Origin: Pelagibacteraceae bacterium AG-349-L23 | Lineage (GTDB): Bacteria; Pseudomonadota; Alphaproteobacteria; Pelagibacterales; Pelagibacteraceae | Direction of reading: 5' to 3' | Assembly (NCBI GenBank): GCA_003281045.1 | Contig: QCDD01000001.1 | Location: 1-62,207, forward strand | Length of the DNA: 62,207 nucleotides | Shown: piece after piece, positions 37,237 through 44,117 of the stretch | How positions within the stretch are numbered: position 1 is the stretch's first letter | Layout of the letters: each line of letters starts with the position of its first letter | Program-made: the position numbers and the translations under genes | The notes under the pieces: model-generated | Told to the model about the DNA's origin: nothing | Database searches by the model: none | What the model saw: the letters and a program-made list of their open reading frames with translations, nothing else

Positions 37237-37611
37237 ATGAATAAATATATAGCAGTAATACTATCCTTATTAATTTTTACTTCTGCACATGCAGGTATGA
37301 GTAAAGATGACAAATCTAAAGCTTGGGATTGTATTGGAATTTATATGGCAAATTACTTTTTACCATCTGGTGAAAAATTTGAATATGGCATGAAAGAAAA
37401 ATCTATTTCAACAGTAAAAGTTTTAAAAACGTATGCTCTTGAAATTGGTATTCCAGAAAAAGAGTGGGATGAAGGAGTAAATAAAGCAGTTGATAAGCAT
37501 TATGGTTCTAAATACGATAAAGCTAAAACTGAAAAATGTCATACATTTGTTGAAGCTTTAGTTCCGAATGGAGCTGAAAGAGTTAAAAAAGTAGTTCAGA
37601 CTTTGTATTAA
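37237..37611 (+). CDS. Secreted small protein, 124 aa, unknown
   Basis: A 124-residue protein with a signal peptide (1-19, cleavage after SAHA). The mature domain is helical and has two Cys (CIG and CHTF, near residues 31 and 109) that could form a disulfide in the periplasm, plus WDCIGIYMANYFLPSGEKFEYG near 30. Its ribosome site GAGGGGTC directly precedes ATG, as for the BASS gene. First of nine codirectional small genes. No family is recognised. Confidence 0.7.
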   Translation: MNKYIAVILSLLIFTSAHAGMSKDDKSKAWDCIGIYMANYFLPSGEKFEYGMKEKSISTVKVLKTYALEIGIPEKEWDEGVNKAVDKHYGSKYDKAKTEKCHTFVEALVPNGAERVKKVVQTLY

Positions 37612-37627
37612 CTTAAAAGGAGAAAAA

Positions 37628-37918
37628 ATGGAAAAAGAAATGTTAGTATTCCTTAAACTTAAGGAGGGTAAATTAGAAACTTTCATGGGATGGATGCAAT
37701 CAGATGAAGGAATGGGTGTTAGAAAAAGCGTTGCTTATCCAGAAAAAACTGTTGGAGCCATGATTCCAGATAAAAGTGGGATGTTATTTAAAGTGAATGT
37801 TCATAATGAAGCTGGAATGAAAGAATTTGTAACTGGGAACAATCCTACCGCGAAGGCTATTTACGCAGAATGTGTAGAGAGCGCTAAATTATATGAACTA
37901 TCTGAAGTAAATTTATAA
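37628..37918 (+). CDS. Small protein, 96 aa, unknown (ferredoxin-fold-like)
   Basis: A 96-residue protein with a strong ribosome site (AAAAGGAGAAAAATG). The order of elements beta-alpha-beta-beta-alpha-beta (LVFLKLKEGKLETFMGWMQ, then VGAMIPDKSGMLFKVNVH, then a helix of charged residues, then AKLYELSEV) suggests an alpha-beta sandwich of the dimeric barrel kind. It has a single Cys in CVESAK. I recognise no family. Second gene of the nine-gene operon, 16 bp after the first. Confidence 0.65.
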   Translation: MEKEMLVFLKLKEGKLETFMGWMQSDEGMGVRKSVAYPEKTVGAMIPDKSGMLFKVNVHNEAGMKEFVTGNNPTAKAIYAECVESAKLYELSEVNL

Positions 37919-37927
37919 GGAGTATAA

Positions 37928-38134
37928 ATGAAAAAAATAATGTTAACGCTTTGTTTGGTCTTATTTGTTAGCTCAGCATATGCAGGTTCATGTCCGATGT
38001 TAGCTAAAAATATTGATGAAAAAATTAAAAAAGCTCAAGAACTTAAAGATCAAGGTATGGATGCCCATAATAATGGTGATCATGCTAAGTCTGAAAAACT
38101 TTTAAATGAAGCTCTTGCTTTATTTAAAAGCTAA
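37928..38134 (+). CDS. Secreted small helical protein, 68 aa, unknown
   Basis: A 68-residue protein with a signal peptide (1-19, cleavage near SAYA-GS), one Cys in SCPML just after it, and an amphipathic helix-turn-helix remainder (EKIKKAQELKDQGMDAHNNG then SEKLLNEALALFK), which looks like a single tetratricopeptide-like hairpin. RBS ATAAGGAG precedes the ATG. The cysteine right after the signal is not a lipobox. Third gene of the operon. Confidence 0.65.
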   Translation: MKKIMLTLCLVLFVSSAYAGSCPMLAKNIDEKIKKAQELKDQGMDAHNNGDHAKSEKLLNEALALFKS

Positions 38135-38149
38135 ACACAAAGGAGAAAA

Positions 38150-38440
38150 ATGAAAAACTATATGGTAACTCACACTTTCAAATCTAAAGAAATGAAAGAT
38201 AAATTTAGCGAAACAGTAGCCTCAATGAAAATGGAGGATATTATTAAATCAATGACCAGTGATAAAGCTGCGTGTCAAATGACTTGGAATACGCCAGCTG
38301 ATACGATGCAAATGTTTTGCTGGTGGAAAGGAAATAGTGAGGAAGATATAATTAACCAACTAGGTCAAATGAATGACTTCTTTGAGCCTCACAAATTTAC
38401 TGAGTGCACTGACCAGGTAATGGATTATAACGCAAAATAG
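38150..38440 (+). CDS. Small protein, 96 aa, unknown
   Basis: A 96-residue protein with a strong ribosome site (AAAGGAGAAAAATG). It has three Cys (CQMTW, FCWW, ECTD) and the aromatic MFCWWKGN segment near 61-68. Element order is beta-helix-beta-beta-helix, again like a small ferredoxin-type fold. The MKNYMVTHTFKSKEMKDKF start resembles the second gene's start only loosely. No family is recognised. Fourth gene of the operon. Confidence 0.65.
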   Translation: MKNYMVTHTFKSKEMKDKFSETVASMKMEDIIKSMTSDKAACQMTWNTPADTMQMFCWWKGNSEEDIINQLGQMNDFFEPHKFTECTDQVMDYNAK

Positions 38441-38449
38441 GGATAAATA

Positions 38450-38764
38450 ATGAAAGCAATTTACACAAGAACCATCGGAGTTTATGACGAAAAACTTGGT
38501 GAGGCTATGGAAATTTCTAAAGGTTTAGCTGAAGTAAGAAAAAAACATTATCCTGATCATGAAGTTTATTTTTCTTTTCAAATTGGTGGAAACCCAAGAA
38601 CAGTTAGAGAAACTCTTATTGGAGAACAATTTACAGACAAAGCATTTGAAAATGATCAAAACATGTCTGCTGATCCTAAATTTATTGAACTTCAAAAAAA
38701 AATGAAGGGTGTTTTTAAAGAAGGTACAATACAAGATGAAATGAGAATGGTATTCAACGATTAA
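38450..38764 (+). CDS. Small protein, 104 aa, unknown
   Basis: A 104-residue protein that begins MKAIYTRTIGVYDEKLGEAM and shows the beta-alpha-beta-beta-alpha pattern of small dimeric alpha-beta barrels (GEAMEISKGLAEVRKK, then EVYFSFQIGGNPRTV, then helical KFIELQKKMKGVFKEG). Such folds include monooxygenase-like and stress-response proteins, but no catalytic motif is apparent. Preceded by GGGATAA 5 bp from the ATG. Fifth gene of the operon. Confidence 0.65.
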   Translation: MKAIYTRTIGVYDEKLGEAMEISKGLAEVRKKHYPDHEVYFSFQIGGNPRTVRETLIGEQFTDKAFENDQNMSADPKFIELQKKMKGVFKEGTIQDEMRMVFND

Positions 38765-38777
38765 GGAGGAGTTTAGG

Positions 38778-39098
38778 ATGTCGATGTTAGAGAAATATAC
38801 CAATGCAATTGATAAAAAAGATGAGTCAACTATGAATGAGCTTTTGCATGATGACTTTAAATTCACAATGCACAAATCAGGAAACACCATAGGTAAAGCT
38901 GATGTTATAAAGTGGGCAATGAGCGGTGATATAAACCAAGATAAAGCCAGAGTAGTCTATGAAAATGATGAAATTGGAGTTCACCATTCAATAGTTACAT
39001 TTAATGACGGAAATGTTGAGGCGGTAATGGCAGTTTATAAATACAAAGATGGAAAAATTATAAGTTTAGAGACTGGCGCCACTCCAATGCCAAAATAG
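38778..39098 (+). CDS. NTF2/SnoaL-like small protein, 106 aa
   Basis: A 106-residue protein matching the NTF2-like cone fold: an N-terminal helix MLEKYTNAIDKKDESTMNEL, the LLHDDFKFTMHKSG strand that is typical of SnoaL-like proteins, and three C-terminal strands (VVYENDEIGVHHSIVTFN, EAVMAVYKYKDGKI). RBS AAGGAGGAG. These folds act as isomerases, hydrolases or ligand-binding proteins. It is the sixth gene of the operon. Its stop is followed immediately by the GTG of the next gene. Confidence 0.7.
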   Translation: MSMLEKYTNAIDKKDESTMNELLHDDFKFTMHKSGNTIGKADVIKWAMSGDINQDKARVVYENDEIGVHHSIVTFNDGNVEAVMAVYKYKDGKIISLETGATPMPK

Positions 39099-40762: not shown

Positions 40763-41863
40763 ATGAAAATAGAATTAACCGATAACAAAGTGTTTTTTGA
40801 AAAACAGGGTGTAAAAAAAGAAATCCACCCTTTCTGGCTAAGAGAACGAGTGAATAGCGAGAACTTTTTAGACCAAAAAACTCAACAAAGATTATTTGAT
40901 CCAACAATGCTTAAAAATAGCTCAGAAATTTCAAAAGTGAATATTTCAGATAAATTTCTTGAGGTAAGTTTTAAAGATGGTGCATACGCAAAACTAGTTA
41001 TCGAAAATATACTTAAAGAATTTGAAAAAGATAATGAATTATACTTTATCAATAAAATTTCATGGAAATCAGACTTTCAAAATAACAATATTTATAAATT
41101 TAATAAAAACTTTTTTGAGGAAAAAATGATGTATGAGTCTTTACTAGACTTTTACAAATATGGATTTGTTATATTTGAAAATGTTCCTACCCAAGATAAC
41201 TTTATTGTCAATTTCGCTAATTCAATTGGAAGTATTAGACGAACTAATTTCGGTGAGTTTTTTAATGTCAAATCAAAACCAAATCCAAATGATCTTGCCT
41301 ATACTTCATTGCCTTTAGCACCACATACTGACAATCCTTATAGAAAACCAGTACCTTGTATACAATTGCTGCATTGCATCGAAAATGAAGTTGGTGGTGG
41401 CTTATCAACATTAGTTGATGGTCTTGCTGTAACGGAAGAATTAAAAAAAGAACATCCTAGTTTTTTCCAAATTTTGACTGAAATAAAAGTCAGATTTCAA
41501 TTTGTCGATGATAATGTTGTTTTAGAGGACTGGGCAAAAATGATCCAACTTGATGAAAATGGAAGACTTAAACAAGTCAGATTTAGTCCTCGATTAGATT
41601 TTGTGCCCTTAATGGATAAGGAAAAATTAGAGTTATATTACGCAGCTAGAAACAAAATATCAGAAATGTACAACTCAGAAAAATTCAGAATTGAATTTAA
41701 ATTAAAACCTGGTGATCTATTAATGATGGACAACTATAGACTTCTTCATGGCAGAACCGAATATAATGCTAATGAAGGTAATCGATTTTTACAAGGTTGC
41801 TATATAGATTATGATAGCACTGAGGGAAAACTCAAACACTTGAAAAGAAAATTCAATATATAA
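40763..41863 (+). CDS. Gamma-butyrobetaine dioxygenase-like Fe(II)/2-oxoglutarate oxygenase
   Basis: A 366-residue enzyme. Residues 1-90 are the N-terminal DUF971-like domain with IHPFWLRERV (22-31), typical of the gamma-butyrobetaine/trimethyllysine hydroxylases. The TauD/TfdA-type catalytic domain has the iron facial triad His-x-Asp in APHTDNPY (about 190-197) and His in LLHGRTEYN (about 330-338), where the nearby Arg binds 2-oxoglutarate. It could hydroxylate gamma-butyrobetaine to carnitine or a related betaine. No carnitine-operon genes are adjacent, so the physiological substrate is uncertain. Confidence 0.85.
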   Translation: MKIELTDNKVFFEKQGVKKEIHPFWLRERVNSENFLDQKTQQRLFDPTMLKNSSEISKVNISDKFLEVSFKDGAYAKLVIENILKEFEKDNELYFINKISWKSDFQNNNIYKFNKNFFEEKMMYESLLDFYKYGFVIFENVPTQDNFIVNFANSIGSIRRTNFGEFFNVKSKPNPNDLAYTSLPLAPHTDNPYRKPVPCIQLLHCIENEVGGGLSTLVDGLAVTEELKKEHPSFFQILTEIKVRFQFVDDNVVLEDWAKMIQLDENGRLKQVRFSPRLDFVPLMDKEKLELYYAARNKISEMYNSEKFRIEFKLKPGDLLMMDNYRLLHGRTEYNANEGNRFLQGCYIDYDSTEGKLKHLKRKFNI

Positions 41864-41864
41864 A

Positions 41865-42044
41865 TTATTTGTTAAAGCAATTGTTTACTAATATTGCCAT
41901 TAATATCCAAATTACAAATGTTTCCCCATGACTAAATGTGTAATCAGCTCCAGCAAAACCTGCCGCAATATTAATAGCGTAAATAATTATCGTAGAGACA
42001 ATTAAGCTTACAAGTAAGTTAATTAATCCTTTTACATATTTCAT
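41865..42044 (-). CDS. Small two-helix membrane protein, 59 aa, unknown
   Basis: A 59-residue ORF from ATG at 42044 to TAA at 41865. Two hydrophobic helices (about 7-30 and 42-54) flank an FAGADYTFSHGET loop. The codon use matches neighbouring genes, but there is no clear Shine-Dalgarno sequence. Its stop lies 1 bp past the convergent dioxygenase stop. Likely real but unproven; it occupies the left third of the 41.9-42.4 kb gap. Confidence 0.5.
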   Translation of the reverse strand: MKYVKGLINLLVSLIVSTIIIYAINIAAGFAGADYTFSHGETFVIWILMAILVNNCFNK

Positions 42045-42138
42045 AATGAAACAATATAGATATTAAAACTCAATGCAATTTTTAATTTTCTATTTTTAAG
42101 TGAAGTTTTTTTAAGATGTGGGAAGACTAATAAATAGT

Positions 42139-42199
42139 TAGGTTGTATTCAAGAAATATATTTAATTAATTTGCAAATAAATATCTTGAATACAACCTA
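42139..42199. repeat. 16-bp perfect inverted repeat with a 29-base spacer
   Basis: TAGGTTGTATTCAAGA at 42139-42154 is matched by its reverse complement at 42184-42199. Inside the spacer TATTT and AAATA can also pair, so the element would form one long stem-loop of about 60 nt. It precedes the mini-ORF and structured segment at 42221-42405. It may be the 5' stem of that RNA, or a bidirectional terminator for the flanking transcripts; it lacks a U-tract. Confidence 0.65.
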
Positions 42200-42235
42200 G
42201 CTGAAATTTAACTTCTAATTAAGGAGGTAGTTTTA

Positions 42236-42262
42236 ATGAATCAAATGCCACCTGACACTTAG
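42236..42262 (+). CDS. Mini-ORF (8 codons) with a perfect Shine-Dalgarno sequence
   Basis: ATG at 42236 follows AAGGAGGTA (42221-42229) with a seven-base spacing, the best Shine-Dalgarno match in the window. It encodes Met-Asn-Gln-Met-Pro-Pro-Asp-Thr and stops at TAG. Pro-Pro-Asp is among the strongest polyproline stall motifs (EF-P-dependent), which makes a translation-sensing leader possible. GCCACCT inside the ORF can pair with AGGAGGT, hiding the ribosome site. Translation is inferred, not shown. Confidence 0.4.
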   Translation: MNQMPPDT

Positions 42263-42382
42263 CTGGGTAGCTTTATATTTCATAAAAACGAAAACAAAAA
42301 ACTTAAAGTCCATTCGGACTTAAATGCCATCAAGGCGACTTAAGGGAGCTCTTTTGGCTGGAGAGCAAAGGGGCGACCCCTT

Positions 42383-42405
42383 AAGTAAATTGAATTTACT
42401 TTTTT
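42383..42405 (+). terminator. Rho-independent terminator of the candidate RNA
   Basis: Perfect symmetric sequence AAGTAAATT-G-AATTTACTT (effective loop TTGAA) followed by four more T on the plus strand. On the minus strand there is no U-run, so it serves rightward transcription, although the stop codon of the convergent methyltransferase (42396-42398) lies inside its right arm. This supports a plus-strand transcript ending here. Confidence 0.6.
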
Positions 42406-43103
42406 AAAATTCGGCAAATTAATTTATCTCTAAAATTTAGTCTTTTGTTATATTTTCTGCTGATTTCGTTTATTCCTTTTAAAATATCTGTACTACTTAA
42501 ATTCAATAATGTTGAAATGTATCGATTTTTAATCATTTCCACATATTTCTCTCTCGATATCTTTACTCTGAAAGAAAACGTCTTCGAAACACTCCCAGGA
42601 TATAAACCATTTATATATCTCAGTATCTTTTGATCTCTTTTAAGCGATTTACTTAATTTTTTTTTCATTTTTGAAAAAGTTGGAATTTCATTTTTAGATG
42701 TGGCCAAGGTAAATATTGCTATCCGACCACCAAAATTAAGGCTATTTATACATAGCAAAAGTAGTTTTTTTATATCTTTAAGTGGTAAAAAATGAATTGT
42801 TTGTTTTAGTAAAATTAAATCAAATTTTTTTCTATTCTTTTTTAAGTAACTTATTGCATCTGTTTTATTAAAAATAATTCTTTTATCTCGATCTTTATGT
42901 TGCTCAATATCAACACCTATTGGCTTATAAGCCAATCTAAGCTTAGATGTTAGATTTCCTAATATCTTACCTCTGCCACATCCAATATCTAAAATTTCAG
43001 AATTCTTATTGAGTTTAGTTTCTTTAATTAAGAATTTGTTAAATGATTTAATATAACTAGTTGATGAAAGCCAAGTTTTATTGTCCCAATTCTTTAATGA
43101 CAC
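42396..43103 (-). CDS. Class I SAM-dependent methyltransferase
   Basis: A 235-residue methyltransferase with SAM motif I ILDIGCGRGKILGNL (about 39-53), an acidic second-strand end in VDIEQHKDR, and FDLILLKQTIHFLPLKDIKKLL as the post-II/III region. The C-terminal 90 residues are basic and helical and hold no recognised substrate domain. The SAM core resembles the ubiquinone/Trm-type group broadly. It overlaps the DUF4396 gene by 10 bp and is likely cotranscribed with the cupredoxin gene. Substrate unknown. Confidence 0.8.
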   Translation of the reverse strand: MSLKNWDNKTWLSSTSYIKSFNKFLIKETKLNKNSEILDIGCGRGKILGNLTSKLRLAYKPIGVDIEQHKDRDKRIIFNKTDAISYLKKNRKKFDLILLKQTIHFLPLKDIKKLLLLCINSLNFGGRIAIFTLATSKNEIPTFSKMKKKLSKSLKRDQKILRYINGLYPGSVSKTFSFRVKISREKYVEMIKNRYISTLLNLSSTDILKGINEISRKYNKRLNFRDKLICRILKK

Positions 43104-44048: not shown

Positions 44049-44117
44049 ATTTAAAAAATAATATTTTAAAATGTTTTAACAATGGGTCAATTTGTACTAT
44101 TATGTTATTGTACTAAA

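Follow-up and report, generated by a model that had tools for sequence, protein, structure and literature searches.

A conserved family of small SAR11 RNAs that couples a very short reading frame to covarying hairpins and probably acts on its own

Few cells in the sea are as abundant as those of SAR11 bacteria, whose genomes have little intergenic DNA and encode few regulators. In one SAR11 genome (912,480 bases, 72.92% complete), a 62,207-nt stretch that we analysed as a whole (hereafter the window) holds a segment at positions 42139-42405 that raises the question of what it does and whether it serves any neighbouring gene. The original prediction had described an inverted repeat, a Shine-Dalgarno sequence (SD), a very short open reading frame (mini-ORF), the heptamer GCCACCT, several stems and a T6 hairpin, all of which lie where it had placed them (Table 1), and had read them as a ribosome-sensing attenuator or a stand-alone RNA. 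Our comparison of related genomes supports this interpretation in part. The reading that we arrive at, with a probability of roughly 0.5, is that of a stand-alone structured regulatory RNA that depends on the ribosome, is at the same time a tiny mRNA and would act in trans.

Table 1. Features at the locus in coordinates of the window (A1 and A2, alignments described in the text).
Feature	Position (strand)	Details
Divergent ORF	41865..42044 (-)	59 aa, small membrane-like protein
Leftward promoter	42124..42152 (-)	-10 TAGTCT 42124-42129, 17-nt spacer, -35 TTGAAT 42147-42152; left repeat arm
Inverted-repeat arms, 16 bp	from 42139; complement from 42184	TAGGTTGTATTCAAGA
Rightward RNA promoter	42186..42214 (+)	-35 TTGAAT 42186-42191, 17 nt, -10 TAACTT 42209-42214; right repeat arm
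Shine-Dalgarno	42220..42228 (+)	TAAGGAGGT, full 9-nt match to anti-SD complement
Structured RNA	42221..42390 (+)	~170 nt, or up to 42405 should it end with the T6 hairpin
Mini-ORF	42236-42262 (+)	MNQMPPDT*, ATG AAT CAA ATG CCA CCT GAC ACT TAG
GCCACCT	42247	inside mini-ORF
Hairpin H2	42306..42321 (+)	AAGTCC/GGACTT; paired 99.4% (A1), 100% (A2); changes on both sides
Hairpin H3	42326..42336 (+)	GCC/GGC; paired 80.0% (A1), 81.3% (A2)
Hairpin H4	42338..42386 (+)	lower stem ACTTAAGGG 42338-42346 / CCCTTAAGT 42378-42386
T6 hairpin, terminator-like	42384..42405 (+)	5' arm from ~42384, overlaps H4 3' arm
Convergent downstream neighbour	42396..43103 (-)	methyltransferase-domain gene

The segment belongs to a conserved RNA family of SAR11, and conservation beyond this single locus emerged from blastn, from a sequence pattern and from covariance models alike. 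At the gathering threshold of Rfam release 15 the segment matched no family, with only a tRNA found elsewhere in the window, and the best of 18 sub-threshold matches in 41860-42440 (E<=10) were miRNA models on the inverted repeat that we assign to promoters below; ARAGORN found no tmRNA in the 62-kb window. A blastn search with 42120-42420 gave matches in 23 of 61 related genomes, a count to which the own genome and some short matches due to chance contribute. Reading of 17 loci revealed a plan common to most, i.e., an SD, an ATG, a few free codons, CCN CCN GAY ACN and a stop, followed by hairpins. A pattern made from the 5' part of this plan matched 88 of 397 genomes of the family (71 of 140 among the high-quality ones), was confined to one of 14 genera with zero matches in the control columns, and never occurred more than once in any of the 397 genomes scanned. 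Among named genomes it was found in at least 118 stretches, of which 116 are listed as Pelagibacteraceae, Candidatus Pelagibacter or Pelagibacterales and two are not. Exact matches outside the clade, in Microbacteriaceae (L069, excluded by name from the locus set) and Uhrbacteria (L167, absent from the locus rows), were taken as chance. Viral contigs had no exact pattern match, and thus no carriage by phages was found.

Covariance models extended this picture. Model R1, which was built from pattern-found sequences and is therefore not wholly independent of the pattern, matched strongly (E <= 3.6e-13) in 74 of the 115 genomes searched in the genus, all of them at least 90% complete apart from the own genome, and its match in the window spans 42219-42383 with an E of 4.6e-33, the window sequence being part of the R1 training set. 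The remaining 41 genomes gave nothing or weak matches only, so the RNA must be dispensable. Among the matches below 25 bits, the eleven regions that were read (L220-L230), nine of them from genus genomes lacking a strong match, look like chance since none has the mini-ORF plan. An order-wide draw of 198 genomes found four members in the sister genus g15, and model R2 matched all six g15 genomes tested, four of eight genomes of sister genus g12 at about E 1e-7 and, weakly, two of 13 genomes of sister genus g8 (E 0.016 and 0.035). A class-wide draw, run with stricter filters that lose weak matches, gave matches in four of 289 genomes, all SAR11 (three of the own genus and one g12), and none in the other 285. 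Ten further weak model matches (L264, L266-L269, L271-L274 and L276) were judged chance on reading. Two loci of another family of the same order, f2, are possible distant relatives: in L262 and L263 (around 1501-1650), an SD-led ORF beginning with Met or a TTG start and Asn-Pro-Pro is followed by hairpins and adjoined by a convergent gene, with MNPPA* in G039 (E 0.0026) and a longer TTG-started ORF in G045 (E 0.0015).

The mini-ORF that had been predicted held up and, judged by its codons, it is coding. The exact pattern, including the PPDT-stop core, is present in 72 of the 74 genomes with a strong R1 match. An ATG in frame is found in each of the 128 unique pattern loci, a frame that the pattern does not demand, and their peptides consist of M, two to six free residues and PPDT, within an overall range of 6-11 residues for the family. 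On a tree of 126 rows built only from sequence 3' of the stop codon, where every row has an in-frame ATG 6-21 nt 5' of the core (some with a second at 3), changes by codon position were 1,1,6 and 0,0,1 for the two prolines, 0,0,10 for Asp, 0,0,5 for Thr and 0,1,5 for the stop. The four PPDT sense codons thus show two changes at positions 1-2, both due to a Leu codon in the divergent member G324, versus 22 at position 3, a contrast that is partly built in because 121 of the 126 rows were gathered by a pattern fixing positions 1-2. At the third base, the changes seen in the core are synonymous apart from the Leu codon of G324 and, in g15, the replacement of Asp by Glu. Less biased support for coding comes from the 72/74 retention of the core, from the reading frame and from the peptides of the sister genera: the g15 members read have MSPPET* with TGA stops, the four g12 members MSPPEI* and the two g8 genomes an SD plus MFMPIPDT*. 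In addition, G324 has MLKLPDT*, and the degenerate copy in G276 has no clear SD or start and ends in LPDT*.

These outlying members also qualify the prediction that Pro-Pro-Asp acts as a stall motif. Pro-Pro-X is present in 72 of the 74 genus matches and in the g15 and g12 members read; it is lost in G324, G276 and the two g8 genomes. What persists is P-[D/E]-[T/I]-stop, a peptide end that is kept across three stop codons.

The ribosome-binding site in front of this ORF, predicted to be near-perfect, is in fact complete. The strand reads TAAGGAGG from 42220, followed by T, and AAGGAGGT has no second occurrence in the window. It is the strongest SD there, though by no wide margin, as the next-best among 117 ORFs of at least 60 aa have 8 nt (38778-39098), 7 nt (37928-38134) and, in four cases, 6 nt. 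Four of the ORFs with next-best SDs (6, 7, 6 and 8 nt) lie in a packed run of short same-strand ORFs at 37237-39098. A full-length SD would also suit an RNA that holds or titrates a ribosome, a release factor or peptidyl-tRNA(Thr) and whose 3' domain would serve as a handle for a protein to bind. The mini-ORF is comparable in length to one ribosome footprint, and Thr is encoded just before the stop in each of the 128 unique pattern loci of g1 (where the pattern demands it) and also in G324 and g15. However, the last residue is Ile in g12 and hence not absolute, and we regard such a role as very unlikely.

It had further been proposed that GCCACCT in the ORF can mask the ribosome site. Such pairing is possible, with at least four of the five GGAGG bases paired with the Pro codons in the minimum free energy fold of 47 of 57 distinct SD-to-stop segments. 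Its mean probability is only 0.35 when 30 nt more are included, exceeding 0.5 in 26 of the 57 and depending on a pairing window that is approximate. As the pairing is weak and nearly invariant, it has no independent support.

Beyond the stop codon, the prediction of a structured RNA is corroborated by compensatory changes. The RNA part folds at z = -3.24 (one of 200 shuffles as good); z is -7.96 for the full segment, but there the inverted repeat of the promoters, which this transcript probably lacks, is counted in. In alignment A1 (35 representatives picked by k-mer dissimilarity from the 128 unique loci), a 22-pair structure is paired in 93.6% of cells, and its covariation score of 0.248 compares with 0.155 in shuffles, none of 500 reaching it, and with at most 0.144 in slid controls. 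Two other measures in A1 are weaker, with 24 of 500 shuffles as high for pairs changed on both sides and 417 of 500 for further pair types. Alignment A2, whose 41 rows take in G324 and four members of g15, was fitted to the model and so leans towards it; its covariation score reaches 0.310, and both partners have changed in 13 pairs. Covariation in these alignments is clear for H2 and H4 and less so for H3, with both-side changes in one of three H3 pairs in A1 and all three in A2. H4, which has a small internal loop above its lower stem and an upper stem starting from AGCTCTTTTGG, shows both-side changes in six (A1) or seven (A2) of 14 modelled pairs. A candidate H1 flanking the stop codon, in which the codon before the two prolines would pair with CTGG, gave no consistent covariation in an ungapped scan of 65 distinct rows. 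In g15 and g12 (L250-L261), a further hairpin directly 3' of the stop codon seems, by eye, to covary. The conservation of both stems and mini-ORF across SAR11 relatives is what the original prediction had anticipated for a genuine element.

The joint conservation of ORF and hairpins bears on two other readings. The locus could be a micro-protein gene whose peptide of 6-11 residues is the active product, with hairpins that merely stabilise or terminate its mRNA; the codon-level conservation of P-[D/E]-T-stop, an SD unmatched in the window and the stand-alone position would all fit. Yet conservation and covariation of the hairpins extend over the same range, beyond the need of an mRNA tail, and the N-terminal residues of the peptide vary freely, which makes this unlikely in our view. 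Quite unlikely, too, is an ordinary base-pairing small RNA in which the ORF is incidental or minor: its own promoter, a length of about 170 nt, stem-loops and a stand-alone position are what one would expect of it, but the codon constraint on the ORF is not, and neither is the absence from A1, outside the ORF, of any long invariant unpaired stretch resembling a seed, nor that of a conserved U-rich 3' end (H4 is followed by TTTT in only seven of 125 loci).

Where would such an RNA start? The 16-bp inverted repeat predicted as part of the structured segment is present, and what did not stand is its role as RNA structure. The sequence upstream of the RNA reads GGTTGTATTCAA...TTGAATACAACC, and each arm read outward is a TTGAAT with a -10 hexamer 17 nt away, i.e., the arms form a pair of divergent promoters. 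A leftward TAnnnT lies at exactly 17 nt from the -35 in all 124 scorable unique loci, and the leftward -10 is found in 35 of 35 representatives (L004 being scored at a chance upstream match). To the right, TTGA.. followed by 16-18 nt and TA...T occurs in 122 of 128 unique loci and 31 of 35 representatives, counts from a flexible rule that has no chance control. An RNA hairpin or the end of a mobile element was rejected as explanation of the repeat because the right arm varies and the -35/-10 spacing is kept on both sides. With promoters in the two arms, transcription of the RNA should begin at the SD and leave the repeat out, and we infer a rightward start about 7 nt past the -10, near 42221.

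The probable product of the leftward promoter in the window is the 59-aa protein, for which Pfam gave no match; in other genomes, too, this membrane-like protein is frequently encoded divergently beside the RNA. The left neighbours of the RNA vary between loci, and the left promoter core is present in 125 of 128 loci, though in 48 of 122 loci with a left ORF the neighbour is not divergent. At 42117-42152 and at other loci, a C/G-containing stretch lies just past the leftward -10 in many lineages (e.g., TAGATTCYCG, by eye), also where no divergent gene follows; it could possibly mark a second short leftward transcript or growth-rate control. In 12 genomes, exact matches to the left-arm motif occur only at the RNA locus, and with one mismatch there are four matches elsewhere versus six for a reversed control. 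Such matches are thus no commoner than in the control, and no regulon was found.

The gene that the RNA might control in cis was sought on its other side. In the window, as predicted, the nearest plus-strand gene is far downstream, with a plausible same-strand start only at 44082. Throughout the genus, 123 loci have a right ORF of at least 60 aa and five more have none. The nearest right-hand gene is convergent and no more than 250 nt away in 120 of the 123, and same-strand at 453-644 nt in the other three; none of the genus loci has a same-strand ORF closer than 453 nt 3' of the RNA among its two nearest ORFs. The second pillar of the attenuator idea, a terminator that excludes the preceding stem, is true of the window, where T6 hairpin and stem share about 3-4 bases, but it is not supported as a conserved switch: a strict rule (a hairpin of at least 6 bp directly followed by T5, at most 45 nt past H4) is satisfied in four of 125 loci, three of which (L001, L002 and L161) have T5 hairpins with the window's stem type. 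A looser rule, which has no chance control, gives 40 of 125. We therefore hold a classical cis-acting leader-peptide attenuator to be most improbable, even though a mini-ORF followed by hairpins, the alternative stems of the window and the distant members G100 and G149, in which a same-strand ORF begins 74 and 25 nt past the RNA, respectively, would be in its favour. Of the two options originally proposed, it is the stand-alone RNA that remains: with no gene after it to control in nearly all loci, the RNA probably acts by itself, as a translation-linked regulator.

How might this preferred reading work? From its own promoter, the right arm of the divergent pair, a transcript would begin almost at the perfect SD, which would load a ribosome that reads the 6-11 codons ending in Pro-(Asp/Glu)-Thr-stop, 5' of the three conserved hairpins. 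The most likely place for the ribosome to slow would be either the stop codon or the Pro-Pro-acidic step. In the data of PMC4140641, PPD and PPE are among the EF-P-dependent pause sites of E. coli, and only a minority of PPX motifs pause strongly, with context deciding; EF-P is present in all seven genomes that we checked. As Pro-Pro is not universal in the family, the conserved event could equally well be termination after P-[D/E]-T. Depending on whether a ribosome is present, the pairing of SD and Pro codons would re-form or not, and the 3' hairpin domain would be stable and exposed or not. The RNA could in this way report translation status and act on a target in trans. More tentative, and one that we would not bet on, is the idea of a new bacterial class of autonomous ribosome-parking RNAs, in which the perfect SD and a very short ORF ending in P-[D/E]-T-stop capture one ribosome whose occupancy at or near termination switches the structured 3' effector domain.

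Compared with known systems, we rate the RNA as a candidate for the dual-function small RNAs that combine an RNA with an encoded peptide, as it has both a short ORF under apparent coding selection and conserved structure outside this ORF. MgtL-type leader peptides of mgtA are encoded by short ORFs with prolines and acidic residues near the start and control a downstream gene. The SAR11 ORF is likewise short with Pro and acidic residues; the difference is that in nearly all loci there is no downstream gene to control. The leader RNA rnTrpL derives from an attenuator before the trp genes. In Sinorhizobium meliloti, another alphaproteobacterium, it has a very short ORF whose peptide, peTrpL, is reported to act in trans (PMC7298713). 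Unlike rnTrpL, the SAR11 RNA has a putative promoter of its own, no downstream operon and a different peptide.

Among the open literature that we searched, we recognised no paper describing this RNA. However, its locus has been seen before: Table 1 of Meyer et al. 2009 (PMC2704228) includes the HTCC1062 intergenic region 762678-763012 (335 bp, SAR11_0785/qacH) with 76 BLAST hits at a screening threshold of 200, and assigns no RNA to it. The HTCC1062 copy of our RNA lies within, at 762690-762861 on the minus strand, and the HTCC7211 locus is 673876-674033, likewise on the minus strand; the HTCC1062 tmRNA is elsewhere according to the same table. The SAR11_0636 element of that study is, like our RNA, a SAR11 RNA proposed to be separately transcribed, but it differs in place (622388-622552) and has a three-stem junction model, with no mini-ORF mentioned in its section (PMC2704228). 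For another strain, HIMB5, Stav et al. 2019 (PMC6429828) report at least three sORFs as well as the motifs HRC-1 and HRC-2 of unknown function; this survey of a SAR11 strain may overlap with our family, for which the HIMB5 position to compare is 794989-795148, and a prior listing of the RNA there is possible. The part of Table 2 available from the Red Sea transcription start site paper (PMC5069720) holds protein genes only. The convergent neighbour in HTCC1062, SAR11_0785 (L180, 1834-2178), is a DUF952 gene in an iron-limitation study (PMC2864753), on whose list it appears as a late, 1.52-fold change.

A small folded RNA, predicted to be a strong recruiter of ribosomes, thus appears to be present as a single copy in many SAR11 bacteria. 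It is open to testing in HTCC1062 and HTCC7211, both of which are grown in culture. A peptide with only about four conserved residues raises the question of its role and of whether its conserved end serves as a sensor of termination or of the state of EF-P. With covarying structure, a codon-constrained ORF of 6-11 residues, a single copy per genome where found and nothing downstream to control, such a conserved RNA would be an uncharacterised SAR11 regulator.
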